From the NCBI GenBank assembly GCA_030683605.1, contig JAUXPL010000018.1, positions 1 through 64,000 on the forward strand: 64,000 nt of DNA, read 5' to 3'. Position numbers and translations under genes: made by a program. Shown piece after piece: positions 18,116-47,673 of the stretch (within the stretch, counting starts at the first letter, position 1; the number at the start of each line of letters is the position of its first letter). Source of the stretch: Candidatus Altimarinota bacterium (GTDB taxonomy: Bacteria; Patescibacteriota; Gracilibacteria; BD1-5; UBA6164). The notes beneath the pieces are model-generated. The model saw only the letters and a program-made list of their open reading frames with translations, searched no databases and was not told the origin of the DNA.

Positions 18116-18166
18116 TTAACCCACCTTTGAATTTCCTCCCTAATATTAGGGAGGAAGGCTCATTAT
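18116..18166. repeat. GC-rich palindromic element (TAACCC type) after the DUF559 gene
   Basis: Starts TTAACCCACC and contains the palindrome CCTCCCTAATATTAGGGAGG, then AAGGCTCATTA. The last bases form the TAA stop of the DUF559 gene. Same family as 18557, 23019, 39633, 46904 and 47351. Confidence 0.85.
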
Positions 18167-18540
18167 AATAAAAATGTTTTAATTTTTTCTAAAACTAGAT
18201 TTAAATTATTTTCTAAATCATCATTTTTAATCCTTATAACTTTAATTCAATTTTTATTTAATATTTTTTCTTTATAAATATCTAACTCATATACTTCTTT
18301 CAAATTATGAATATTTCAATCAACTTCAATAATAATTTTTTTTTCTTTACAATAAAAATCTGGAAAAATAAATCTATTTAATCAAGAATCTTCAGTATAA
18401 ACATACATAGGATTTTGTCTTAAAAATTTAACTCACAATTTATTATTTTTTAACTCATTCCATAATATTTTTTCTGAATAAGTCATATTTTTTCTCAAAT
18501 TTCTTCATATCTCTACTATATTATTTGGTACTATATACAT
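18163..18540 (-). CDS. DUF559 (Vsr-like) endonuclease-domain protein
   Basis: 125 residues. It has AREMRKNMTYSEKILW-like starts (here NLRKNMTYSEKILWNELKN), FLRQNPM, FIFPDFYCKEKKIIIEVDG and IRIKNDDL. This is the DUF559 domain, related to the very-short-patch-repair endonuclease fold (conserved D and E of PDFYC...IIEVDG). The Gly of EVDG is UGA. The gene is boxed between two palindromic elements (18116 and 18557). Its cellular role is unknown. Confidence 0.9.
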
Positions 18541-18556
18541 TTTTATTAAATTATTA

Positions 18557-18598
18557 TGTAGCTATTCCTCCCTAATATTAGGGAGGTTAGGTGGGTTA
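18557..18598. repeat. GC-rich palindromic element (TAACCC type) between tmk and DUF559 gene
   Basis: CCTCCCTAATATTAGGGAGG core followed by TTAGGTGGGTTA, inverted relative to the copy at 18116. It ends 3 bp from the tmk stop codon. Confidence 0.85.
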
Positions 18599-23018: not shown

Positions 23019-23169
23019 TAACCCATCCTTGAATTCCTTCCCTTAAGCCTAAGGGAAGGAGGCTACAATAAATTAAATGTAGCCTCTTTCCCCTGATACG
23101 TGTCCAGTCTTTAGCTGGAAGGGGAGAGAATTTATCCGAAGGTGTATCCTGTGGACAAGAGAGAGGTTA
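23019..23169. repeat. Composite GC-rich palindromic element after rpoD
   Basis: The left half is the TAACCC type (TAACCCATCCTTGAATTCC, then CCTTCCCT ... AGGGAAGGAGGCTACA). GTAGCCTC repeats as its inverse, and the right half carries the CCCCTGATACGTGTCCAGTC and GCTGGAAGGGGAGA blocks also seen at 19277 and 34150. It sits between convergent rpoD and the surface-protein gene and may act as their terminator. Confidence 0.85.
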
Positions 23170-30186: not shown

Positions 30187-30227
30187 TACCCCCTCCTTAC
30201 TAGGGAGGGTGGTAGTGGCTGGGTTAA
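30187..30227. repeat. Short GC-rich palindromic element abutting radical SAM gene 2
   Basis: CCCCCTCCTTACTAGGGAGG followed by TGGTAGTGGCTGGGTTAA. The GGGTTAA end supplies the TAA stop of the radical SAM gene at 30224. Confidence 0.8.
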
Positions 30228-31516
30228 ATAACACTTTCCAAAACCTTAAATCCATAACTCCTCACAAAATTTATATGTATTCATTTACATTCTTTATCAT
30301 ACTTACATTTTTTACAATTCAAAGACTTTATTCTATACAAATTATTTATATATTTATATGTGTAATCTTCTAAAGTATCATACTCTTTTATATCATTATA
30401 TGTTTGATATATTCATGATCATCATAGACATTTAGGTATATTTATTAGCTTTTTGTTGTATGATTTTAGTTTATTTTTGAAGTCCTCTATTTTATCTCAG
30501 TATTTTTCATATACTTGACTTGGAAATTCTTCTCATAATATAATAAGCAATCCCCTTTTTGGTACTTCCATTGATAATGGAAGAAAATCTAGTTTTTTTG
30601 TATTTATGTTCTCTATAAAACTATGACAATAATCTTTTTGAAAACATACTGAACAAGCATCACCATAACAATTTGGTTTTATTTTTCAGTCTGATTTTAT
30701 AAATTTTTCAAATGTTGAATATGCCTCTCACATTACTTCTGATTTCATTTTTCTAGGGTCTTGAATCAAGTCTTCATATCATTCAAATGCTTCAGCAGGA
30801 AATCTATTTGTCCACATATACATTCATGGTACTTTAGATAATTCCCATGTTTTTTGTAAATACTCTATATTATCAGATATATTATAGAATAGTTTAGATT
30901 TGTATTCTTTGAATCATCTTCCAAATGGAATTATTTGCAATATATCGTATTCATATACTCAAAATTTCATAAAAAATTTAACTATATCAGGCAAAAATCT
31001 AACATTTACTTTATTCACTACTATATCTATATTCACAATAACTTCTGGAAAATATTTCTTTATATTCAATAATCATTTAATAGACCTATTAAAAGCTCAT
31101 GGAGTAGCAACTAGATAATCATGAAGTGTAGAATTGTGTCAGTGAAATGAAAAAGTAATCTCTTGCAATCCAGCATCTACTACTTTTTTACAAAAATCAA
31201 AACTATGGAACATATTTCAATTCGTAACTGTCTGTACTCTATTATATCATAGTTCCCTAGCATACTTTATGTATTCATTAAATTTTGGATTAATTGAAGC
31301 TTCACCTCATGAAATTATTACTCTATTTTCATATCATTGTTTAAATCATTTTTTTATCTCTTCTTTTACTATATCTTCTTTTACTAATACTCAGTTTTGG
31401 GCATCTGAATCTAGACAAAACAAACATTTATTATTACAAGCAGCAGTAATACGAACCCAAACTCTATTTTGTTTGGTTGTTTTTTCTTTTGATAATAAAT
31501 TTTGTTTATTTTCCAT
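30224..31516 (-). CDS. Radical SAM protein (island member 2)
   Basis: 430 residues. AACNNKCLFCLDSD (about 25-38) binds the SAM cluster, and IISGGEASINP follows with UGA-Gly in GGE. There are two more Cys groups: CYGDACSVCFQKDYC (about 268-282) and CKKCKYDKEC near the C-terminus. The latter is a SPASM-like auxiliary cluster motif shared with members 3 and 4. It is last in a five-gene minus-strand operon; its first 11 bp overlap the end of member 3. The reaction is unknown. Confidence 0.9.
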
Positions 31517-33498: not shown

Positions 33499-35637
33499 TT
33501 ATATTTCTATCTTACAATTTAAACACCCCTCTGAAATATTAGGAAACTTTTTATTCAAAAATAATTCATATTGTCTAGACAAAACTATTTCAAGTAAACT
33601 ATTTTTATTTATATTTCATAGATTATTCTCATAATCATCTAATATACAACATGGAGAAAAATCACCATTTTCATTTATCCTTATCTCTTTTTTAGACTTT
33701 ATAAAACTACAATTATTTCATTCTATTTTTTCAAAACTATTATTATTTAATATAAAATATATGAATTTATCAAATTCTCATTTATAGTAATCAGGAGAAA
33801 AAACTACTTTTATATTATTTTTATTTTCTAGTATATATTTTTTATCTTCATCGTAAAATATTTTTAATTGCTCCATAGTAGGAAATAAATATAATGTATC
33901 ATTTATAGGTGCTGTAGATATCATAGAAAAAGATATAGAATCTACTCATTTTTTCTTAAAAAAATCAAAAATATCCTTACTTTGGCTTATATTATCTCTT
34001 CTAATAGTAAAATTTATATGCACATTTATTCAATACTCTTTTAAATTAGAAATATTTTTATCAATCGTATTAAATAATCAGTTTATTCATCTGATTTTAT
34101 CATGTAATTCATATAATCAATCTACTGAAATATCCATATAATCAATAGAAACCCCTCTCAATTCTCCCCTTCCTGCTACGAGTCCCGTCTTTAGCGGGAA
34201 AGACTGGACATGTATAAGTGGAGATGAAGAAAATATATTAGTTGATTTATTTTTTACAATATTTTCGTAAAAATTATTTCATAATGTTGATCAATTCGTT
34301 GAAACTGAACTTATTAAATTCAGAGATTTACTTAAGTCTAATAGTTCAAAAAATCATTTATAAATAGTTGGTTCTCATCATGTAAAATTTACGACTTCTC
34401 ATCATAATTTATAAAAATCTAGTATAGATCTTTTAATATTTATAATATTATTATATTCCCGTTTTCTCTTTATTACTCAGCACATATCACATTTTGCATT
34501 ACATGCATTTGTTAGTCTGATTTTTATGTATTTGTATTTTTTATAATTTACGATAAACGATGCAGATAAATAAGCTCAAGAAAAATTTAAAATAATCCCT
34601 CCCCCTTCGGGTACTCCCTTTGGGAAAGGGAGATTTATAAACAATTTAGAAAGTTCATTTAAATTAATTTCATTTCAATTATATAAATAAATCACTTTTT
34701 TTGATAATATATCTAATCTAGCTTGTTGTTCTGTATCTGTTTTTCTAGGATAAATTATTGTAATTTTTTTATAATAAATATTTTCATATATATTATTGTA
34801 TCCTCACATAGTCACAACTAATTTTGCTTGTATTTTTAATTCTAGAAAATTATCAAAATAATCCTTTATTTCTAATTTGTTATTTGTTATAAGGTGTATT
34901 TTTTCTACATTTTCTTCAGTATAATTCTTTCATAAGTTCACAAATACTTTTCAATCAAAACTAGTATTATTTAACTTTTCTAAAAAATCTAGTACAAATT
35001 CAATTCCATCTTGTCATCCTCATATACTTATGAGAATATGATTTTTTTCTATTGTAGATTCTTTTAAATTATTGTTTACTATAAATCATGTATAGATTAT
35101 TTTTCTAGATATATTTTTATGAAATTTATCATTATAATTTATTATTTTTTCATCACTATGAATTAGAAATCTATCAAATAATTTTAGATTTTTTTCTTGA
35201 ATAGACTCTATATCAAATATATCTCTAACTGAACAAAAAACATTTCATTTATGATTTAATTGCTTATATTTTTTAATTAAATAATCTAACTCAAAATCTA
35301 AAAAATTTCTTCAAAAAGGATAATGTTCAATAATTAATGATTCTATATCTGTAATAGAAAATAATTTATCAAAAATAACTTTTCTAAATATTTTTATTTT
35401 TTTATTATGATTATTATCGATTAATTTATAATCAAATATTTGATAATTCGGTAAATTAATTATTTTTAAATTATTAGATTTTTTAAATAAAAAATCTTGT
35501 TTTTCTCAACTATTAATAACTATAATATTGTAATCAACTCAAAAATTCTCAATTATATTCTTTATAATTAGAGCTATTCTATTCCCATGACCAAGTCATC
35601 AGAAATTGTGATAATAAAATATTAATGTTTTTTTCAT
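33499..35637 (-). CDS. GT28-like glycosyltransferase fused to a radical SAM/SPASM protein
   Basis: 712 residues in one frame (33499-35637, no TAA/TAG). Residues 1-340 resemble MurG/GT28-type glycosyltransferases: YYHNFGGLGHGNR start, ISIGGGQDG, TMGGYNNIYE and RKTDTEQQAR. Residues about 375-712 are radical SAM: LTNACNAKCDMCGV, FTGGEPT, and a SPASM-like end (FSPCCILDD ... GCLNCKIE). The linker between them (about 335-350) is read from a palindromic element (34591), and a second element (34150) adds about 26 residues inside the radical SAM half. Either the fusion is native or an element removed a stop. It starts 8 bp after the upstream gene. Confidence 0.85.
34150..34225. repeat. In-frame palindromic element inside the GT28-radical SAM gene
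   Basis: Carries CCCCTTCCTGCTACGAG, TCCCGTCTTTAGCGGGA and GACTGGACATGTAT, the blocks of the intergenic element at 19277. In the host gene it is read, without stop, as about 26 residues (SPLIHVQSFPLKTGLVAGRG and flanks). They fall between TNIFS and IDYMDISVDG, where other radical SAM proteins of the island have no insert. Confidence 0.85.
34591..34633. repeat. In-frame palindromic element at the GT28/radical SAM junction
   Basis: CCCTCCCCCTTCGGGTACTC plus CCCTTTGGGAAAGGGAG, the block also found at 28561, 57354 and (inverted) 15050. Read in the host gene as NLPFPKGVPEGGGII, exactly between the two enzyme domains. Confidence 0.85.
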
Positions 35638-35645
35638 TTTACAAA

Positions 35646-37937
35646 TTAAATTATATATTTAAATTTACTACAATCCCCTAATTCAAAAAATTCATTTTCT
35701 CAAATTTTTATTAGTTCAAAATCTATTCATACGAATTGATTTAACTTTGTTATTAACAAATCATTATCAATATTGTTAAAAGAAAAATAATACAACTTAT
35801 ATTCATCAAACTGATAAAATAGTATTTCACAGAAATATTCACTGAAAAAATTATCTAAATCTTTAAGAGTTTTACTATTTAATAATTGATTTTTCTTTCC
35901 ATTTATAATAATATTTTTTCAATCATAATTTCATAAATCATCATTTTTGTATCTAATAAATGGAAAATATGGATTATCCAAATCTGTGACTACAAATTCA
36001 GAGGAAATCTCTTCAAAAATAATATTATCTCAATACAATTGCTTATTTCCGTCAATATCTATACTGATTGGTCACACTTCACTACATCCATAATTATCAA
36101 ATACATTACAATCAAACACTTGTTTTATATATTTTTTTAGACTTTTATTTGTATAAGTATATGTCAAACTTATAGCTTTTAATTTCGGTAAGTCTAAATC
36201 AAATTTCTGGAATCAAAGTATTAAATACAATAAATATTTAGCATCTGAATGGAGATACTTCGTATTTTTATTATCTTTAAATATATTTTGTATTTTTATA
36301 AAATACTCTTTTTCGAAATAAAAATCTGATATACTGATATATATTTTTTTTACATAATCTGGCTCAACTATATTATTTATTGCTTTTTGATTACAATTAA
36401 TTGGTGTCAGTGAGAAGTAAGAATCTTTGAATGTGAAATCAGACTCATGAGAAAAAATAGCTATTTGTTTAATATGTCTTTTGAAATCAAGTGGATAAAC
36501 AAATTTAAAAGCATTTCCAGTATTTCATGATGTTTTTCAATAGAGTACTTGTTTATTTTCGCTTAATTTAAGTATTTGCTCATAATTTTTTTTCAAAATA
36601 ACTTTATCCAAGATTGGCAATTTCTCTATAAATTCTAGAGAATTCATGTTTTCTATATCAGATTTACTTATATTATTATTTAGTAATAATTCTCTATAAA
36701 ATTCTAGATTGTCATAAAAATGAAATAATTGTTCTTTTAATTTTTTTAGTTTTATATTATTTATTAGAGAAACATCCTCAGTAAATAATTCTTTTAAATA
36801 TCTATAATAATTTATAGCTATACTCTTATCATATAGTTCATCATTTAGATATATTTCATTGAATAGAGTTTTTCTAGTATAGAAATTACTAGCACATTTA
36901 GAAGCATATCCACATTTTTCATTTGAGTTTTGTCTATATTTTTCATATTTTTCTGAATTTCTTATTTGTGAAATATCGTTTTCTAATACATTTCATACTG
37001 ATACACTAGGACTTCTTTCTACTACACAACAACCATACATATCACCAGTATAATTGATAGATGAGTGGTCTAATGGTCAAAAACAACCATATTTATCATA
37101 GAAATATTTTCCATAGATTCATTCATAGAAACTATTTATTTCCGAGTGGTATTTTTCTATATCTGATAAATTTTGCAATACTTCATCATTGTTTTTTCAT
37201 ACTAATTCACTTATAAATGGTGAAAAATCTACATTAATATTATACAGTTTAGCTTTATTGAAAATCAGTTTAATTTTCTCTCTAAAAAAATAAAAAAACT
37301 CCCTTTTTGATAGATTCAAGCTATCAATATCTTTCCTATTTTTATCATTCAAAAATACAAAACTCACTCTATCAATATCGTATTTTTTTCACAAATCTAT
37401 CATTTGGTCTAGAGTTTCAAAGTTGTATTTCATCACAACTGAGTTTATATATATCTTTAAATCAGGATTTATTTTTTTTGATTTTTTTATTATATCAATA
37501 TTTTTTGCAAATGATCCATTTACTCATCTGATATAATCATGTATCTCAGCACTTGGTCCATCTATAGACAAATACAATTCATCCAATCAGTATTTTAATA
37601 TTTTTATCAATCTTTTATCACTAAGTAGCCATGCATTAGTTTTGATTGCAACTTTTAATCACAGTTTTTTTGAGAATGCTATTAGGTCTTCCAATTTGGC
37701 ATACATAGTAGGTTCTTGCCCGTGAAACCTAATATAATTGCAATTGTAATCTTTTTTTAATTTAAGAATTATTTTGTATAAGTCATCTTCTGTAAATTTC
37801 ATCTCTATTTCCCTTTTCCAATTATCACACATCACACACTTAAAATTGCATCATCATATCAGATGCAAATCTGCCCTAAAAATCAAACTTTTTCAAGTAT
37901 TTTTGTGGTGTATGTAATTTTGTGTAATTTGGTGCAT
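35646..37937 (-). CDS. Radical SAM domain fused to a PaaK-like adenylate-forming ligase
   Basis: 763 residues. The N-terminal radical SAM has IGGCNFKCVMCDNWK (about 28-42), YIRFHGQEPTMYA in place of the usual GGEP (here HGQEP), ISIDGPS-like LYLSIDGPSAEIHD, and an auxiliary region with CGYASKCAS. The C-terminal half (about 430-763) resembles phenylacetate-CoA ligase/CoF390 synthetase: YWKTSGNTGN (about 470), YGCSEVGP (about 617), VVTDLDNPYFPFIRYKNDD. Such domains activate a carboxylate as an acyl-AMP. One protein that makes a radical and activates a carboxylate is unusual. First gene of the five-gene minus-strand operon. Confidence 0.85.
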
Positions 37938-38362
37938 AGGAGTTACTAAAAATTAAATCTGATGAAATTTATATAATATGAATAATACAAAAAATATAAT
38001 AATAGCAAAGTGTAAGAATATTTCGAATTCAATATATTTTTATATCTCAAAATGAAAATTATAAAACTTGATAATATAAAAATGGTCAAAAATTTTAACT
38101 CTTTTTCTTTTATTTCTAATACAAGTGGTCAAAATAATGTATTTGATATATGTATAAGATATAAATATGTACTAAAATAAATGAAAAAAGTGATAAATAC
38201 TGTTAATGTGAAAAAATATATTAAATCTTTATGTTTATTAAAAAAAAGCATATTTATTTTTGTTTGTAATATAATTTTAGAAGAATCTTATAAACTAATC
38301 AATCAGAATCTGAAGTATTCTGTTGATTTAATGTATTGTTATAATGTTATATTCACAAAAGG
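37938..38362. other. Intergenic region with weak small ORFs
   Basis: 425 AT-rich bases between two minus-strand genes. Two plus-strand frames (38052-38180, and one starting at 38181 that runs opposite the glycosyltransferase end) are the only open stretches. No terminator or promoter is convincing. Confidence 0.35.
38052..38180 (+). CDS. Weak 42-residue ORF
   Basis: MKIIKLDNIKMVKNFNSFSF ... YKYVLK, ATG 38052 to TAA 38178. It is antisense to the local operon direction, has no recognised family and no ribosome site. Its interest is only that it lies next to a radical SAM operon. Confidence 0.15.
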   Translation: MKIIKLDNIKMVKNFNSFSFISNTSGQNNVFDICIRYKYVLK

Positions 38363-41300
38363 TTACATACTCAACAACTCCTCCAACTTCTCAACCCCCT
38401 TCTCACTTCAAAATTCCTCTTTGACCTTTTCTAATCAATTAACAACAATCCTTTCAAAATCAAAAAGTCCCTTTATCTTCTCCAAATCTTCCTCTACATT
38501 TCCACTTAAAACTACTCATGTTTCTCAGTCAATTATTAATTCTCCAATCCCTCAAACAAGCGTGCTAAATACTAGATTTCAACTAAGCATATTTTCAAGT
38601 ATCATATTTGGTATTCAATCTGTATCTCAGTTAGTTGATACTTTTGAATAATTGATATATGTATTATAATTATTAATCTGCTTTAACAAATCTTTATGCT
38701 CTAAAAAGCCAAAATACTTGATTTTATTAGTTAATCATAATTCATATATTTTTTTGAAAATATCATTTTTTAATTCTCCATCTCAGATTAATCATATTTT
38801 AGCTACTAAATCCTGCTTTTCTAAAAGTGCTATCAAATCTAGTACTTCTACAATCCCCTTTTTTTCTACGAATCTTCATCATATAAGTATATTTAATTTT
38901 GAAAAATCCTTCTTAATAAAAATATACTTTGAAAAATCTAATACACTTCTAACTATTTCTATTTTTTCATTTATACCTAATTTCTCCCTTTTTCAAAGGG
39001 ATTGGCTGAAAGCCGAGGGATTAGAAAAATCAATAACACTTATTGTAGCCCCTTGCCCTTTTCAAGGGAAAGGATTTATGCCCGAAGGGAGGTATCCTGT
39101 GGACAGGTTAGGGTTATTTAAATGTTTCTCTAATTCTCATCTCATCTCCCCATCCCTCACAAATATCTTATCAATATTATCCAGAAACTTATTTTGATTT
39201 TTTAAAAAACTATACACATCATATCACCTAGCTGCTGAATATATTTTTATATCTAGTAATAATGTTTTTATCTTTGAGATAAAAAATGCATCAAATAAAA
39301 ACTCTGTATAAATTATTTTAATATCATATTTCTTTATTAAAAAAACAAAATATTTTAAATATTTAATATATAATTCTGTATCATTTATTTTTGGGTATTC
39401 TATATCTAATAATGTATCAAATTCTTTCCTATAAACTATATTGAAATTATTCGGAAATATATGATTATTATCCATTTTAAGTGTAAAAATTATAGGATTT
39501 ACTTTTTCTAGGAGGCTAAGTTCTTCATATATAAAATTCTCTGATTTAGGCAAAAATATATTCTTAAAAACTAATATATTTCTCTTATTTATTTCTTTTA
39601 TTATTTCCTCACTTATAATTTTTTTTCCATCTTGTAGCCTCCTTCCATTTTCAAGGGAAGGAATTCAAGGATGGGTTAATAATTTGTCAAAACAATTTAA
39701 ATCTTTATTCTCATCATAACTCCCCTTCTTAATAAAATCTACTCCGAAATGATTCATAAAAAAATCTATTCTATCAGATTGATTTTCAGCGTTTCTTTCT
39801 ACTGGAAATAACAAACACTTTGTGTTTGAAAAAAATACTTCATTTATAGTATTGTATCATCATCTACCGATAAATAATTCTGAGTTTATAATACTTTTTG
39901 ACAAATTGTTATCAAATTGTGAAATATTTATGAATTCTGGAATCCTTAAATTAGCTGTTAATTCATCATAATATTTTCATAAGACAAATGTGATTTCATA
40001 TTTTGAAAATAATTCTATATTTGAATTTATTAGTTTAGTTACAAATTCAAAAAAATATTTTGTATTTTCATAGTCTCAAGCATATCCAGGTGAAACTAAA
40101 ACCCCTCCGGCTTTCAGTCACATACCCTTATCAAGGGAGGAAATATTTATATCTTCATAAACATATCATGAGAAAAATATATTCTTGTAGTTATTATAAA
40201 GATCCTGTTTTTCCTGAGATAATTCTTCTATAATATGAGGAATAAATATTTTCTTAAAAATAAATAAATAAGTTTGTATAGAATTTAAATAATCTAGTTC
40301 ACTATCTCTTAAAATCAAAAAATGTGATAAATCTGGTCTATTATCTAATACTTTTTTTATAAAGTAAGTATCATGTATTATTATATCTATGTTGTTTTGT
40401 TTTATGATTTCATTTATTTTTGAAAAATTTTCAGATTCATATTCTTGAAAAGAAGTATTATTTAAACAATCCTCTATTCAATAATCTAATGATAAAACTC
40501 TAAATCATGCATCCTCTATTAAAAATGGATTTTTACTATTAGTTACAAATATTATTTCTCATATAACATCTGATTTATGAAGTTCTTGTGCTATTAACAA
40601 AGTCCTTTTTATATGTCATAATCCTATACCATTTATAGAATGAATTATTGCATTTTTTTTATTTAAAAAATATTTTTTAAAATCATTTGAAAGCTTTGAT
40701 TTTAGATTTTTTTCTAGATTATTATATCTATCATAAATATATCTTTTATAGTCAGGAGAATTGTGTTTTTGATAGTTTTTGAGCCAATTATTAGATAGTG
40801 ATTCAATATTTTTTTCTTCTAATATTTTATATGGTGGATTATACAATTTTTCTGATAAATTAAGTACTTGTAGATTTTCATTAAATACTATTTTGTGTCC
40901 TGCTTGTTGTAATCTAAATCAAAACTCAGTATCCTCATCTCACCATGAAACAAGTGATTCATCAAATCATCAAATACTTAAATAAATATCTTTTTTGATA
41001 AAAAAATTGGATGCACAGAAAAATTCCCAGATTCTATTTTTATTTTGTTTTTCATGATAGAAATTGATTCTGAAATCACTAAAATCTGGATTATTTATAT
41101 ATCAATTATCTATGAAAAAATCTATGCCTTCATCATTTAATTCTTTTTCTAAATTATTATATCATAAGTATGGTCAAATTATTACATCATCTTTATCTAT
41201 ATATTTTAGTATTTTTTCTATATGATTTTTACTAAGAATTGTTTCCTGATCTATAAAATATAGATTTTGACTTCATGCTAATTCTGCTCATTTATTTCTA

Positions 41301-41536
41301 GCTTTGCATACTCTATTTAGTCAGTTTTTAGGTCATAAATAAAAATATATTATCTCTAAATCTTTGAATTTATTTATTGTTTCTTTATATATATTTTGAT
41401 AATTTTGTCTTGATCAATCATCAATAAAAACAACTATTATCTTTATAGCTTTGTTTTGCTGTTTTTTTATTGATAATAATTGTTTTTCAATATAATCAGA
41501 ATTATATAGTGGGATTATCAAATTTATGATTATCAT
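38363..41536 (-). CDS. Three-domain glycosyltransferase (GT2 + GT28-like + GT4)
   Basis: 1057 residues in one frame. Residues 1-250 are GT2: LIIPLYNSDYIEKQLLS, FIDDGS, IDQET, GGFDESLVSWGDEDTEF. Residues about 298-620 are GT28/MurG-like: HSINGIGLGHIKRT, VLVSPGYAGDYENT, IGRGGYNTINEV. Residues about 640-1057 are GT4: GGRFVEKKGI, LIGDGELKN, GIPNMILENMLSG. Palindromic elements are read in frame at about residues 465-478, 620-634 and 807-852. The protein would transfer several sugars in a row, for example in a surface glycan. Its start is only 15 bp from the divergent asparagine-synthetase-like gene. Confidence 0.88.
38981..39117. repeat. In-frame composite palindromic element in the GT4 domain
   Basis: Two palindromes, TTTCTCCCTTTTTCAAAGGG and CCCTTTTCAAGGGAAAGG, plus GAGGTATCCTGTGGACAGG, shared with 23019. 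I traced every codon from 38978 to 39124. It encodes about 46 residues (HLNNPNLSTGYLPSGINPFP onward) with no TAA/TAG and two UGA read as Gly. Confidence 0.9.
39633..39678. repeat. In-frame palindromic element (TAACCC type) between GT28 and GT4 domains
   Basis: The minus-strand sequence TAACCCATCCTTGAATTCC with its CCTTCCCT/GGAAGGAGGCTACA arms is nearly identical to the intergenic copy at 23019. Read as LTHPGIPSLENGRRLQ; one Gly is UGA. Confidence 0.9.
40101..40142. repeat. In-frame palindromic element in the GT28-like domain
   Basis: CCCTCCGGCTTTCAGTCACA and CCCTTATCAAGGGAGG. Read on the minus strand as SSLDKGMGLKAGG just before VLVSPGYAG; one Gly is UGA. Confidence 0.8.
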
Positions 41537-41551
41537 CTTTTTTTAAATTAT

Positions 41552-42898
41552 ATGTATACTAAAAATAGTAATGAATTTTTGAATAAATCAATAAAAATAA
41601 TTATAAAGTGAAATATTTATTGAATAAGTAAAGAGGAGCTAATAAAAAATATAGTAAAAGACTATAATTGAGATATAAAAAATATTATAGATATTATCAG
41701 AAATATAGAATGAATCTATGTTATTATTATTAATGATTTTAAAACTAATAATACATTTATAATAAACGATAAATTATGATTATATCCATATTATTATAAA
41801 AAAATAGATAATAAAATCATCCATAAAAATGATATAATAAAATTATCAAATATTATGAATCATTCTTATTTGAATCTGAAAAGTATTTTGGAAATTATGC
41901 AGTTATGATATATAACAAAAAATAAAACAATAATAAAGTGAATCAAAAAAATATCTCCATGATCAATATTATCTATAAGTTATAATAATGAAGTAAGTGA
42001 ATCAAAATATTTTAATTTAAAAGCAATAAATAATACTAACATAGAAAAAATATATGATAATTTCAAAAAATGAGTGGAAAAAAGAGTTATGTGAGAAAAA
42101 ATGTACAGTGATTTAAGTTGATGATTTGATTCTAGACTTATAATGCTGACACTTATAAAAGAGTTAAAACAAATAAACATAATATTTATAACAAATAAAT
42201 ACTATGATATAAAAGATACTGAAATATCAAAAGTATTAGCAAATAAATTATGATTAAATCATTTAATTTATGAAGATAAGTCTGTTTTTGATAATCATTT
42301 GTATTGATTCTCTTGATTATGCTGATGAGAATTATTATGAAATTCTCTTATGAAAGAATGGTTTGAATATGAGAATATTGAAGAATATTTGATAGACAAA
42401 AATACAATAATAAAAAGTAAAAATATTAATTACGGAATAAAAAGTTTCATAAAAAATATTCTCAGAAGTGAAATAAATACAGTTCAATGAAATTGATGGT
42501 TGAATCCAATAAATCAATTCAAATCAAATCTATTATTACCTTTCTTGGATACAGATTTTTTAAATAGTATTATTTGATTAGAAATTGACGAATTAAAAAA
42601 TTATAAAACATATAAAAATATATATGAAAAATATTTTAATGAATTCTTAGATATTAAATATACATTTAATAGTGAAAGAGAATGAGTAAATAATATAGAA
42701 GAAGAATTTTTATACTTCAAAAATTATAAATTAAATAAAAATGAATATATAAAAATAGTAATTTTCAATAAAAATAATTTTGTAAAAAGTAATTTATCAA
42801 AATTATTTAATTATAAAATAATATATAAAAAACCTTTAGAACTTTATTGAATAATAAAATTTATAGAAAAAATAAACAATATAAAATGAAACAAATAA
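41552..42898 (+). CDS. Asparagine synthetase-like protein
   Basis: 448 residues. The N-terminal part (1-150) resembles a class II glutaminase domain (GIYVIIINDF, LGLYPYYYKK), but the catalytic N-terminal Cys is absent (protein starts MYTKN), so it probably does not use glutamine. The synthetase domain has YSDLSGGFDSRLIM (about 195), the SGGxDS pyrophosphatase loop with Gly as UGA. It would adenylate a carboxylate and form an amide. First gene of a plus-strand operon with four radical SAM genes; the next gene overlaps its end by 13 bp. Confidence 0.85.
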
Positions 42899-44571
42899 TA
42901 AAAAAAATATTGTATCAAAAATTGTATTCTAGATACAAAGAGATTTTTGAAATAGATATAGACGAAATAATAGAAATATGAATAAAAAAATTTATTCAAA
43001 TATTAAAAGATATTTCAATTAATGAATCAAAATATAAAATAAAGTACTTCCGTTTGGATAATATAGAATATGATGATTACTTCAGTGTTAACAAATGAAA
43101 AATAATCATATGAATAAATAATATAGAAAATATAGAAGCAAAAATTAAAACAATAAAAATTCTAGTATTAACAAATGTAGAATTCAAATTACTATACAAA
43201 ATAGAAACAAATAAAAAATATTTTGAAAATGATTTTTACAAATATATATCACAAAATATAATTTTTTCAATATTTATTAGTTCAAAATATAATAAATATG
43301 ATTATAATTTTTTATTGAAAAATTCTAATAAATTCAATGATAAAGAAATATACATCTGATTAGATAAATTAAAAAATCAGAGTGATGTGGAAAATGAAAT
43401 AATATTTGAAATAATTGAAATCATAAAAAATGCTTGATGACATATAAATAATGATCTAATAAGATTGGAAAGTGCTTTTAAAAAAATATATATACTTTGA
43501 CCTAAAGAATTACATCTTGATTTATATGAATATTGTAATGCTAGCTGTAATTTTTGTGTTACTAATTGACCTTGATTCTTGACTGATAGAATTGATAATA
43601 ATGAAAATAATTACAAAATACAATACAAATGAATTGATTTGATAAAATTATTTAAAAAAATAAAAAAATCTCAAACAGAAAGTCTAGCATTATGAATTAC
43701 TTGAGAACCATTTTTACATCCAGAAATTAAATATATTTTGACAGAATTATGTAACATAAATATAAAAGTATGATTTCTCACTAACTGATACAAGTTACTT
43801 GAAAACTTAGAATTAATACTAAAAAATAAAAATGTAATACATTTTTATATAAATATTTCTGCTTGAAATATAGAAAGCTTTAAAAATACTAGACCAAATG
43901 ATAATTTTTATAATTTTCTGAATGTATGGAAAGCAATTAAGATAATAAGAAAAAAAAGACCCGATATAATAATAAGAACTCTTTATGTAATAACACCCCA
44001 AAATATTAATTGACTAGATGATTTTATAGATTTATGTATTAAAAACAATGTTTGAGAAATAGAATACAAAAGAGTAGTACCATATATTTTTAGTAATAAA
44101 GATTTATTTTTCAATGATTCAGAAGTACTCAAAATAATTAACTTAATAAAATCAAATCAAGAAAAAATAAGTAAAATAAACAATAATAGTGAATATATAA
44201 TCAATGAATTTAATGAAATTCTTGAGTGAAAAACAGTTCAATATCCTGAAGATGATGAAATGGATAAATCTAATTTAGTTTGAAAAACAAATAATTGTTA
44301 TAATCCGTATTTTTATATATCAATATTTAGATCTTCTTCTTATACTTGTGGTAAATTTGTAGCAAAATTATGAACTCTTTCAAACATTGATTTATACGAA
44401 AATTTATTTGAAATAAAGAATACAAAAAATATACTAGATACAAGTGAGAATATAAAAAAATATTTATGAGAAAATAAATGGAAAGAGAAGTGTAGTAGAT
44501 GTCATCATTTAGATGTAATTAATATAGTAAAACAGTATATAGATATAAAAAAAATATCATTAAAAAATTAA
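42886..44571 (+). CDS. Radical SAM protein with long N-terminal region (island member 7)
   Basis: 561 residues. The first 200 residues are a charged helical domain of unknown kind. Then comes EYCNASCNFCVTNGPGF (about 219-235), LALGITGEPFLHPE (GEP without the first Gly of GGEP), and a C-terminal SPASM-like region with YTCGKF and CSRCHH. The ATG at 42886 lies inside the last codons of the asparagine-synthetase-like gene, so coupling is likely. Confidence 0.85.
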
Positions 44572-44575
44572 TCAC

Positions 44576-45484
44576 ATGCTTAAATCAATAAATTTTGAAA
44601 TAATAGATATATGTAATCTCAGATGTAGTATGTGTGATATTTGGAAAAATACACAAAGAAATACTATATCTATTTATGATTTTGAAAAAATACTTGAATC
44701 TAAATATATTTCAAAAAATACAAATATTACACTTACTTGATGAGAACCTTTATTACATTCAGAAATAAAAGAAATATTTCTAATATTTCATAATAAATGA
44801 TTTCAAATACATACTCTTTCTACTAATTGATTTCTATACGAAAAACTAGAAGAATTACTCATATATTGTATTTACAAAGATATACAAATACCAAATATCC
44901 ATATTAGTGTAGATTGAATGGAAGAAGTACATGACTTGCAAAGATGAGTGAAATGAAGCTTCAAAAAAAGTATAAATACAATAATGATGCTCAAAAAATC
45001 ATACAAAAATATAAATATCAAAATCAAATATACAATAACAAAAAATAACATAGAAGACATAAAAAAAGTATATTTATTATCGCAAAAAATGTGAGTAGAA
45101 ATTGACTTCAAAGCAGTAGAAAATGATAATTTTTATACAAACAAAATACAAAAACCACAATTACTAGACAATAATGATAAAGAATTAGTAATAAGTATAC
45201 TTAGATCAATTTATAGAAATAATCTATATGCAAATAATCTAATCCATTACTTAGAATTCGGTAAATTGAGATTCAAATGTACTACCCCAAATTATAATCT
45301 GTTTATAATGGCAGACTGAGAAACTTATTGTTGCACGAAGTATGAATCAATCTGAAATATAAAAAATAATACACTAGACGATATTTATTACAATCTAAAA
45401 CACAAAAATATTATTGCAACAGTGGATCAAATTAATTGTAGTAAATGTTATAGTTTGCATGGTAGTTTTAAAAGTGTGATTTAA
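44576..45484 (+). CDS. Radical SAM/SPASM protein (island member 8)
   Basis: 302 residues. IIDICNLRCSMCDIWKN (about 9-25), LTGGEPLLHSE with both Gly UGA, STNGF, ISVDGMEEVHD. The SPASM end is ETYCCTKYESIGNI ... INCSKCYSLHG. It is like AslB/MoaA-type peptide-modifying enzymes. Four bases after the upstream gene; a composite palindromic element follows before member 9. Confidence 0.9.
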
Positions 45485-45487
45485 CAC

Positions 45488-45610
45488 TTAACAGCCCTCA
45501 CCTAACCTCTCCCAAAGGGAGAGGAAATTAAGGATAATTGTTTTTTTACATATTGTCCCCTCTCCCTTTGGAGAGGGCTAGGGTGAGGGCATTCATTAAT
45601 AAGGAGGGGG
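45488..45610. repeat. Composite GC-rich palindromic element between radical SAM genes
   Basis: The outer arms GCCCTCACCTAACC and GGCTAGGGTGAGGGC pair imperfectly. Inside are CTCTCCCAAAGGGAGAGG and CTCTCCCTTTGGAGAGGG. It ends AAGGAGGGGG, about 26 nt before the next ATG. It interrupts an otherwise tight operon. Confidence 0.85.
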
Positions 45611-45635
45611 AAAATAAAAACTAACAAATAAATAA

Positions 45636-46622
45636 ATGACTCATTATATAAAAAGTATAAATTGGATATTTACATATAAATGTAATCTGAAATGCAATCA
45701 TTGCGACATCTGGAGTTATGATTATAAATCAGAACTAAGTATAGAAAAAATAAAAGAAATCGTAAATTCAAAAATCATTCAAAATAGTTATAAATATTAT
45801 TGAGAATTTTTTGATATTGGTATAAGTGGATGAGAACCATTATTAATAGAAAATTTGGAAGAAAAAATGCTTGTAATAGATGAGTATTTACCTAACTCTA
45901 TACATTCAATAAGTACAAACTGAATATTGACTAATAAGTTGATGAAATTGCTTATATTTTGGAAGAAAAAATGAAAAAGTTTTAAAAAGATAAATATTTC
46001 AGTCGATTGAAAACAAATAAACCATGATAGACAAAGATGATCCCTATGAAGTTTTATAAAAGTTTTAGAAACTATTTGAAAAATAAAAAAAGTATTTCCT
46101 AAACAGATTATAGAATTGAAAATGACTATAACAAAAAATAATTATAAAGATATAATATTTTTGTGTAGATTAGCAAATAAACTATGAGTAAATTTTTCAT
46201 TTAAACCTGTGGAAAATATGACTAATTATACTAATCAAAAAAATGATTATAATGTGCATTTTACTGAAGATGAAATAATTGAAATCGAAAATCAAGTATA
46301 TGACAATCCATATATAATCGAGCAATGAAATTATATAAATAAAAATTTTTTCTATAAAATACCTGATTACTTGAGAAACTGATTATGAGAAGAAAAAAAG
46401 AATTGTAGTATAGCAAAAGATTCTATTACTATTATGCCTGATGCTAATGTTTTTTCTTGTATACTTATGAATAAAATCTGAGATCTAATAGAAAATAATT
46501 TAGATGAAATATGGAATTGAAAAAATATTAAATTACAGAGAAAAGATATTGAAAATGGAGATTGTCCAGAATGTATGCTGATGTGTGGAGCATTTAAATC
46601 AAAAGAAATATATGACAGATAA
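45636..46622 (+). CDS. Radical SAM/SPASM protein (island member 9)
   Basis: 328 residues. TYKCNLKCNHCDIWSYD (about 13-29), ISGGEPLLIEN, ISTNGIL, ISVDGKQINHD, and a SPASM end with VFSCILMNKIGDL, IWNGKN and CPECMLMC. GGE is GGA-UGA. Its stop overlaps the start of member 10 (ATGACAGATAA). Confidence 0.9.
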
Positions 46623-47673
46623 ATATATCATAAACTGGGAATTATCACTTGCCTGCAATTTAGATTGCTCTTTTTGTAGTCAAAAAGAAAGAAGGAATCT
46701 AAATAATAAAATACCTAGTCTAGAAAATATTTATCAAATAATTGATAATTTACCTAATAATACTCACATATCATTTCTATGATGAGAAACTCTAATGTTA
46801 CCAAATATAATAGATATATTTAAGAAACTTGAAGAAAGATGAATCTCATATGAAATAACTACAAATGGAATACTTCTAGATAAATTTTTTGGTGTTGTTA
46901 TGAATAACCCAACCTTAAATTCCCTCCCTAAAATTAGGGAGGGAGGCTACAATAAAATTGAACAATTAAAACATTTAACTCAAATAAATATTTCTATAGA
47001 TTGATATGGTGATTTTCATGATATATCTAGATGAAAAAAATGATTATTTAATAAATTAAAAAAAGTTATTCCAGAATTAATAAATATCAAAAATATTACA
47101 ATATCCACTGTTATCAGTCCGAATCTAACTAATGAAAATATAGTCAAATTGCATCTATGGTTAAATAGTATATGAATAAAAGAACACAAATTGATTTATA
47201 TGATGAATTTTTCCAAAATAGATGTAGAAAATTCAAAAAATAAAATAAAGGAATTAAAAATATGATTACCTGGTTCAGAAAAGCTAGATAATAATGTATT
47301 GAAAAATAATTTCTTAGAAAAATTATCACTACTAAAAAATCTATGAAATAATAACCCCTCCTTGTATTCCTTCCCTAAAATTAGGGAAGGAGGCTACAAA
47401 AAAATTCAAATAACAATAGAACCTATTGCCTTATTTAAAAAATGAAAGATTTCATGTAAACAATTAGATAAACAATTGAGAATAGATGAAAATGGAAAAC
47501 TTTCTATATGTGAATTTATCACAAATAATTTCGATGATATTTCAAAAATAAAACTAAATGATGCTATAAAAAATAATGATTTTATTGAATTTAAAAAAGC
47601 TATTAAATCAAATTTCCCACTAGATATATGCAAAACTTGTTGTAAATTATATAATGAAAACTCCTCTAACTAA
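46612..47673 (+). CDS. Radical SAM/SPASM protein with two in-frame palindromic inserts (island member 10)
   Basis: 353 residues. The ATG at 46612 overlaps the previous stop and is preferred to an upstream GTG. ELSLACNLDCSFCSQKE (about 9-25), FLGGETLMLPN, ISIDGYGDFHD; SPASM end LSICEFITN ... DICKTCCKLYN. Residues about 98-115 (NNPTLNSLPKIREGGYNKI) and 247-264 (NNPSLYSFPKIREGGYKKI) are nearly identical and are the translation of two copies of one palindromic element. Last gene of the plus-strand operon. Confidence 0.9.
46904..46956. repeat. In-frame palindromic element, copy 1 in radical SAM member 10
   Basis: TAACCCAACCTTAAATTCC, CCCTCCCTAAAATTAGGGAG, GGAGGCTACAATAAAAT. Read as NNPTLNSLPKIREGGYNKI. 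The same DNA as 47351 with a few substitutions. Confidence 0.92.
47351..47401. repeat. In-frame palindromic element, copy 2 in radical SAM member 10
   Basis: TAACCCCTCCTTGTATTCC, TTCCCTAAAATTAGGGAAGG, AGGCTACAAAAAAAT. Read as NNPSLYSFPKIREGGYKKI, the same frame and orientation as copy 1. Confidence 0.92.

Follow-up and report, generated by a model that had tools for sequence, protein, structure and literature searches.

The window, the whole stretch of DNA that was analysed, comprises 64,000 nucleotides of a 1.54-Mb genome (1,538,616 bases in 57 contigs, 96.6% complete). Few long open reading frames appear in it under the standard code, and a normal gene layout appears when TGA is read as glycine (code 25); the best match of the sigma factor among named relatives is a Gracilibacteria MAG, at 82%. 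GC-rich repeats are conspicuous in the window because its GC content is only 23.4%, and an Rfam search of the window returned 0 matches. A glycosyltransferase gene lies among several radical SAM/SPASM genes (window 35646-47673), with which it perhaps forms a peptide- or sugar-modifying cluster. The first-pass annotation was right to read it as a single glycosyltransferase of 1057 residues, since it is one open frame under code 25 with several Pfam glycosyltransferase domains. Orthologues are present in two congeners, G004 and G002. Palindromic elements, at least four in all, occupy three sites in the gene:

38363..41536, minus strand: glycosyltransferase gene, host of the elements; code-25 open reading frame of 1057 aa, Pfam glycosyltransferase domains
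38982..39023, plus strand: D-family element, in frame, site 3; R2, E 5.5e-13; common to G004, absent in G002
39045..39115, minus strand: C-family element, in frame, site 3; R3, E 1.4e-11; common to G004
39633..39678, plus strand: A-family element, in frame, site 2; R1, E 4.0e-14; A-like in the relatives, in another frame
40101..40142, plus strand: decayed D-like element, in frame, site 1; better kept in G002, absent in G004

The extra in-frame stretches were found where the first-pass annotation had located them, but its count of three independent insertions needs correction: there are at least four elements, and they are not simply private to this gene copy. The 46-residue element that it had placed at 38981 is a real extra stretch made of two adjacent elements, D at 38982-39023 and C at 39045-39115. 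This C and D arrangement of site 3 is shared with G004, and G002 has a single A-like element there. At site 2 (39633) an A-like element occurs in this genome, in G002 and in G004, and its frame here differs from both. The D-like element of site 1 (40101) is shared with G002, while G004 has a shorter, unrelated stretch; this element is decayed and is not listed by the final profile search, and we accepted it because the G002 orthologue is better preserved at that place and G004 has none. Different elements, or none, thus stand at the same sites in sister species, which indicates that the same linkers take different elements. A search for target-site duplications at the glycosyltransferase and RecG sites defined none.

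Alignment of the window copies and their neighbours defined family A (~48 nt, TGTAGCC-hairpin-GGGTTATT), family D (~42 nt, two hairpins and a tail GGGTTA or GGATTA) and family C (~70-92 nt); family E, of CCTCACCCTARCCCTCTCC type, was added after these three. Most aligned A copies start TGTAGCC and so carry the tetranucleotide GTAG, which C has in its reverse complement and D lacks. The hairpins of D covary: both sides changed in 20 cells, whereas shuffling gave a mean of 6.7 and 0 of 500 shuffles reached the observed count. Covariance models run on the genome itself at E<=0.05 gave at least 103 matches for A, at least 148 for D and at least 89 for C, those for A and C falling partly on the same places. 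Outside the glycosyltransferase gene, the window holds these further copies:

23019..23067, minus strand: intergenic A element, the copy earlier compared with 39633; best R1 match, E 2.8e-16
23079..23168, minus strand: intergenic C element; R3, E 2.7e-20
30544..30585, minus strand: in-frame D element of a radical SAM gene (30224-31516; Pfam), a weaker match; R2, E 6.2e-8
34593..34634, minus strand: D element, in frame in the gene 33499-35637; R2 model, profile
46905..46951, minus strand: in-frame A element of a radical SAM gene (46585-47673; Pfam); R1 model, profile
47352..47398, minus strand: second in-frame A element of that radical SAM gene (46585-47673); R1 model, profile

In the alignment the 39633 copy and the intergenic copy at 23019 belong to the same family A, in keeping with their earlier pairing. 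Also borne out is the difference of frame: the 39633 copy is read as LTHPGIPSLENGRRLQ, and the copies at 46904 and 47351 are read in another frame, as NPTLNSLPKIREGGYN and similar.

We took the census of the repeats on 85 stretches (the window, 20 first stretches and 76 around matches, merged), which cover 747,264 of the 1,538,616 bases and were picked for holding matches; a simple purpose-written caller found 739 genes there, with 85.1% of the sequence coding. The profile search of these 747 kb gave 323 non-overlapping palindrome copies (150 D, 82 A, 61 C and 30 E), and the reversed-sequence control with the same profiles gave 0 hits. Most copies (250) are intergenic, 69 are genic and 4 lie at gene edges. 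With the 4 edge copies omitted, genic copies number 69 of 319 against an expected 271, and the density in coding DNA is 20.6-fold lower. Many contig ends of this genome fall at D elements (C8, C9, C14, C18, C19, C31, C38, C42 and C52), which makes it probable that the assembly breaks at the repeats and that the copy numbers are lower bounds. The Y1 tyrosine transposase family (PF01797) had 0 matches in this 96.6% complete genome and did match in control genomes, and a RAYT was rejected as the mobiliser on this result.

The 69 genic copies are spread over 50 genes, which include unrelated conserved hosts. Hosts identified by NCBIfam or Pfam include LigA, MiaB, TatD, UvrB, CysS, the N-terminal part of DNA polymerase I, RNase R (whose gene has four elements), GalE, QueA, PrmC, RecG, malic enzyme, a class A PBP, UDP-glucose dehydrogenase, MnmA and a PriA-like fragment. 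UvrC and two of the three LigA stretches were weak E-like matches of a first survey and are absent from the final list. Genic copies use several frames and both orientations, and E is mostly read in one frame (11 of 17). An in-frame TGA occurs in 16 of the 69, and these would therefore be truncated under the standard code; for D elements, the mean number of open frames out of six rises from 4.65 to 5.25 when TGA is glycine. The 69 copies are not all independent, as two cases illustrate. Several prepilin-like genes (GFTLVELIV) carry a common D element in the leader peptide (L004 8640-8753, L009 10101-10142 and stretches of C25, C35, C37 and C53), which probably reflects duplication of one decorated gene. 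The malic enzyme gene (L120:2201-2337) carries a tandem of three in-frame D elements spaced 48 nt apart, so that elements may also grow by tandem duplication.

The first-pass annotation had attributed frame preservation either to selection against frameshifting insertions or to a target preference, and had proposed to compare the genome-wide in-frame fraction with the one third expected by chance. The copies form 236 clusters, of which 61 have a genic copy and are by definition inside an open frame, and 175 do not. To these 175 we applied a split-gene test, which looks for same-strand coding sequence reaching both sides of a cluster, with a strict and a relaxed score. Four passed the strict and 10 the relaxed score, and all 10 looked like true gene boundaries or opposite-strand genes when their translations were judged by eye. 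The positive control recovered 44 of 50 internal in-frame clusters under the strict score and 48 of 50 under the relaxed one, so that frame-breaking copies should mostly have been seen. No clear frame-breaking copy was found among the 175 non-genic clusters of the 85 stretches; such copies are absent or rare there. Even if all 10 are counted as broken, 61 of 71 are in frame in these stretches, far from one third. The proposal of selection against frameshifting insertions is supported by this fraction and by the lack of a clear gene-splitting copy among the clusters examined. That of a target preference finds no support: survivorship alone gives the pattern, coding DNA is avoided about 20-fold, and several orientations and phases occur. 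Cells with broken genes are lost, so the in-frame pattern shows selection and is silent on target choice; selection against disruption suffices to explain it.

A clue to the source of the repeats lies elsewhere in the window, where a DUF559 gene stands between two inverted A-type elements. PF04480, the Pfam family of DUF559, has five matches in this genome:

18163..18540, minus strand: DUF559 nuclease gene of a putative A-type unit spanning 18117-18598 in the window (PF04480 match C17 18169); 125 aa; PF04480 E 7e-24; AF2 model, fold search
18117..18169, minus strand: A-type end 3' of this gene, tail outward; inverted pair with 18550-18598, flank score 28.7; R1 match 18117-18162
18550..18598, plus strand: A-type end 5' of this gene, inverted relative to 18117-18169; flank score test
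C15 24994: DUF559 of a D-type unit, inverted D elements on both sides
C52 8768: degenerate DUF559 copy, placed between D matches
C23 23508: DUF559 fused to a dehydrogenase-like open reading frame, judged by eye
C4 13634: DUF559 of an E-type unit, inside RecQ

Around C23 23508-23813 (L133), DUF559 appears joined in frame, by way of an element-like peptide, to the beginning of a protein that resembles short-chain dehydrogenases, again judged by eye. By its fold, the DUF559 protein of the window is a predicted Vsr/EDxHD-like nuclease. Its AF2 model (pLDDT 88.7) aligns with 3hrl (Z 14.0, rmsd 1.1, 89 aligned), I-Bth0305I (Z 11.0, rmsd 2.5, 91 aligned) and Vsr (Z 9.6, rmsd 2.1, 97 aligned); Foldseek was also run on the model, and the rows for TnsA and a Holliday-junction resolvase, with Z <8, were not used. 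A DUF559 profile matched 3hrl (1.2e-31) and I-Bth0305I (1e-5) in the PDB, and the residues invariant in 26 DUF559 sequences include E22, D60, E71, D73 and H77. Model and profile thus suggest a likeness to I-Bth0305I and Vsr. I-Bth0305I is encoded in a phage group I intron, whereas the nuclease here either stands alone or continues the reading frame of a host protein, has dispersed palindromes at its bounds and came with no splicing element in the host frames and loci searched.

The same arrangement recurs in relatives. Many of the best D copies of the congener G002 are inverted pairs ~434 bp apart; in the five pairs inspected a short open reading frame lies between the inverted D elements, all of them within longer inverted repeats, and this frame is DUF559 (PF04480). 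We scored the left flank of each gene against its inverted right flank, in a Gracilibacteria sample of 40 regions from relatives plus other loci (50 tried, 4 dropped for short flanks). With thresholds that were set after the scores had been seen, 31 of 46 Gracilibacteria DUF559 loci reached 22, against 6 of 628 genes of this genome, two of which are DUF559 themselves and four of which are not; six near-identical G002 rows enter the first count, and 26 of 41, with these merged as one, is the fairer figure. The test missed one real unit, G002 C8 30099, which has a broken frame. A, C, D and E-like kinds all occur among the paired ends; the only C-type pair found at a DUF559 gene is in G022, with none in this genome. 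In the A and D pairs inspected, the tail points outward and the hairpin faces the gene.

PF04480 occurs in 75 of 286 genomes of the phylum, and among 30 loci listed from these 21 scored at least 14, against 1 of 186 random positions of the same loci. It also occurs in 19 of 50 genomes from other groups; of 30 loci listed there the 16 stronger were tested and weak matches omitted, and 10 of the 16 scored at least 18, against 0 of 229 random positions. The positives are from Chiayiivirga, Sphingopyxis (4 of 4), Acinetobacter, a gammaproteobacterial bin, a Schekmanbacteria bin and two other bins, and their ends are mostly CCCTCTCCC-GGGAGAGGG-type palindromes. A PF04480 match was found in 39 of 72,556 plasmid records. 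At these three thresholds, each set after its scores had been seen, 15 of 46 Gracilibacteria, 9 of 30 phylum-wide and 6 of 16 outside-phylum loci have no clear inverted pair. Counts of D elements and of DUF559 correlate over 59 genomes with kinship ignored (Spearman 0.58; two-by-two counts 16/4/18/21, Fisher 0.012); 18 genomes have DUF559 but no D matches, D being the only end family modelled there, and four (G023, G027, G031 and G040) have D elements but no DUF559 match.

The reading that we favour, and regard as probable, is that the in-frame elements are the ends of a small mobile unit bearing a DUF559 nuclease, that lone ends and nuclease-less pairs spread as well, and that selection keeps the frame. 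An unrelated transposase or recombination could instead move the repeats, with DUF559 a passenger caught between them or the cargo of an insertion sequence. The D-element genomes with no DUF559 match fit such a passenger, and so do two local observations. At least five near-identical D-DUF559-D units of G002 lie inside a longer inverted repeat, GCATAATCTAAATTTTGGTGGA (L185, L187, L188 and L189), as if a second, unrelated mobile element may have picked up the unit, and this repeat may have moved the near-identical copies. A 458-aa gene without DUF559 is likewise framed by D elements (L018:4625-6001, on C10; flank score 48.3), which may be chance nesting or captured cargo. Against a passenger, however, the association with inverted ends recurs across many lineages and for several families of ends, DUF559 and its ends enter RecG and other genes as one unit, and Y1, the transposase family searched, has no match in this genome. 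We therefore consider movement by an unrelated system unlikely.

The entry of whole units into genes is the second line of evidence for a mobile DUF559 unit. Many DUF559 domains are embedded in longer open reading frames. By Pfam, they have host sequence on both sides in RecG, MiaB, TsaD, MnmA, RarA and RecQ, and stand at the N terminus of a MiaA-like and of a methyladenine glycosylase frame; in a further frame a nucleotidyl transferase-like part lies on one side and QueH on the other. An HsdM-like methylase of a standard-code bacterium also has a DUF559 unit in frame. The residues at the junctions of host and nuclease resemble element-coded peptides, for example PHPNPLLRGEG and SPLLQRRGVGGEG. 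At the main RecG site, 29 loci were parsed of 30 listed: 9 have DUF559 (one of them, in G025, cut by a contig end), 1 is nuclease-less and 19 are empty. In the RecG of this genome the insert adds ~61 residues, which E-type ends make up and which include no nuclease; among the congeners the site is empty in G004 (whose first 313 residues are 93% identical) and in G002, and full in G001. That full, empty and nuclease-less alleles exist at one RecG site is secure. In MiaB this genome has a lone C element where three relatives have a DUF559 unit. A FastTree tree built from 56 sequences mixes the units found in RecG, MnmA, TsaD and RecQ, and the nucleases do not group by target site, which suggests transfer between genes; apart from these, the free-standing A- and D-type nucleases cluster together with the fusions to MiaA and glycosylase.

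A homing-type nuclease domain with a patchy distribution, at the same site of conserved DNA and RNA enzymes in several genomes, would also be expected if these units were unusual inteins or introns, removed after translation or transcription, with the small in-frame repeats as their remnants. We found no intein (Hint/splicing) domain in nine host frames (Pfam, E up to 1e-5) and 0 matches to intron RNA models at the Rfam gathering score in 13 unit-bearing loci. Full RecG inserts add ~145 to 185 residues, ~105 of which are nuclease, and a separate splicing domain of known size exceeds the residues left; nuclease-less inserts, moreover, persist in frame. We consider removal by splicing very improbable. 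Equally improbable to us is that common hairpins of the transcription-terminator or REP kind account for the repeats, with genic copies as chance in-frame survivors and nothing special about DUF559: the 250 intergenic copies among 323, the possibility that hairpins near gene ends terminate transcription and the sufficiency of selection to account for the frame all suit it, but the gaps holding elements (105 co-directional, 28 divergent and 22 convergent) have the proportions of all gene gaps (337, 86 and 68) and so are not terminator-like, and both the enrichment at DUF559 flanks and the in-frame units opposite empty sites in close relatives are left unexplained.

A mobile DUF559 unit, then, would have the layout tail-hairpin, DUF559 gene or in-frame domain, hairpin-tail, with its ends inverted. 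Secure observations on which this builds are the repeats, the in-frame genic copies, the absence of detectable frame-breaking ones, the inverted palindromes at DUF559 and the in-frame units. DUF559 would cut target or element DNA, and repair would copy the element in, in a homing- or REPtron-like manner; we infer that the nuclease drives movement of the unit and, in trans, of lone ends. Lone ends and nuclease-less pairs would then spread like miniature elements. Insertion could possibly occur anywhere, and genic copies would last only where the frame is kept, no stop is added and a loop or linker is tolerant. Selection rather than aim would produce the in-frame pattern, with TGA as glycine helping genic copies to avoid stops. 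Host proteins would carry the insert unspliced, retained in the finished product.

Several known systems resemble parts of this picture, as far as the accessible parts of the cited papers describe them. The palindromic elements of Rickettsia (RPE) lie in frame inside genes; like the elements here, they comprise several palindrome families, occur in unrelated conserved genes as well as between genes, and have no known mobiliser (PMC10969869, PMC2229807). By description they are nevertheless set apart, being ~105-150 bp long and encoding a conserved peptide (PMC10969869, PMC2229807), whereas the elements here are mostly ~42-70 nt, are read in several frames in a host with TGA as glycine and are tied to a DUF559 nuclease. 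REPs and REPtrons share the hairpin with a tail, the frequent inverse pairs and the position at a putative mobiliser gene, and REPs are reported inside replication and repair genes (PMC3733652); the gene flanked here, however, is a DUF559 nuclease and not a RAYT, in a genome with no Y1 transposase match. CGTC REPs are described there as lacking a dedicated transposase (PMC3733652), which makes a link to DUF559 a possible question for them. The ShiLan domain of a phage methylase is likewise an insertion compatible with the host frame; it has a homing-type nuclease, and no splicing domain is detectable in it (PMC11855218). Its nuclease is an HNH enzyme out of frame with the host (PMC11855218), whereas DUF559 is in frame in the units here and the palindromic ends also occur alone in many copies. 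Insertions in rRNA genes of CPR bacteria are a separate phenomenon (PMC11270868). On the nuclease itself, PMC9403480 names DUF559 as an EDxHD homing endonuclease family in a sentence on inteins, homing endonuclease families including EDxHD are reviewed in PMC3943268, and a DNA-damage response has been attributed to a Caulobacter protein with a DUF559 domain (PMC12907096). In-frame palindromes, REPs in repair genes and DUF559 as EDxHD are thus already known; in the literature searched, mostly without subscription papers, we found no link between DUF559 and palindromic repeats or in-frame protein insertion.

On a broader scale, we put forward tentatively, at somewhat less than even chances, that DUF559 units bounded by inverted palindromes form a self-spreading class, widespread in bacteria and outside known transposons, inteins and introns, which enters conserved proteins in frame and does not splice, and whose lone ends and nuclease-less pairs make up many orphan REP- and RPE-like palindromes within and between genes, including those of CCCTCTCCC type. 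Many bacterial genomes hold short palindromes that have no known mobiliser, some of them in frame in conserved genes, and a candidate enzyme with matching ends would make their origin testable. In organisms such as this one, where TGA as glycine opens extra frames through the elements, recoding may ease their spread. If the proposal is true, a nuclease-bearing element would reside inside translated proteins without removing itself, and enzymes such as RecG and MiaB would carry a foreign domain of ~105 residues.
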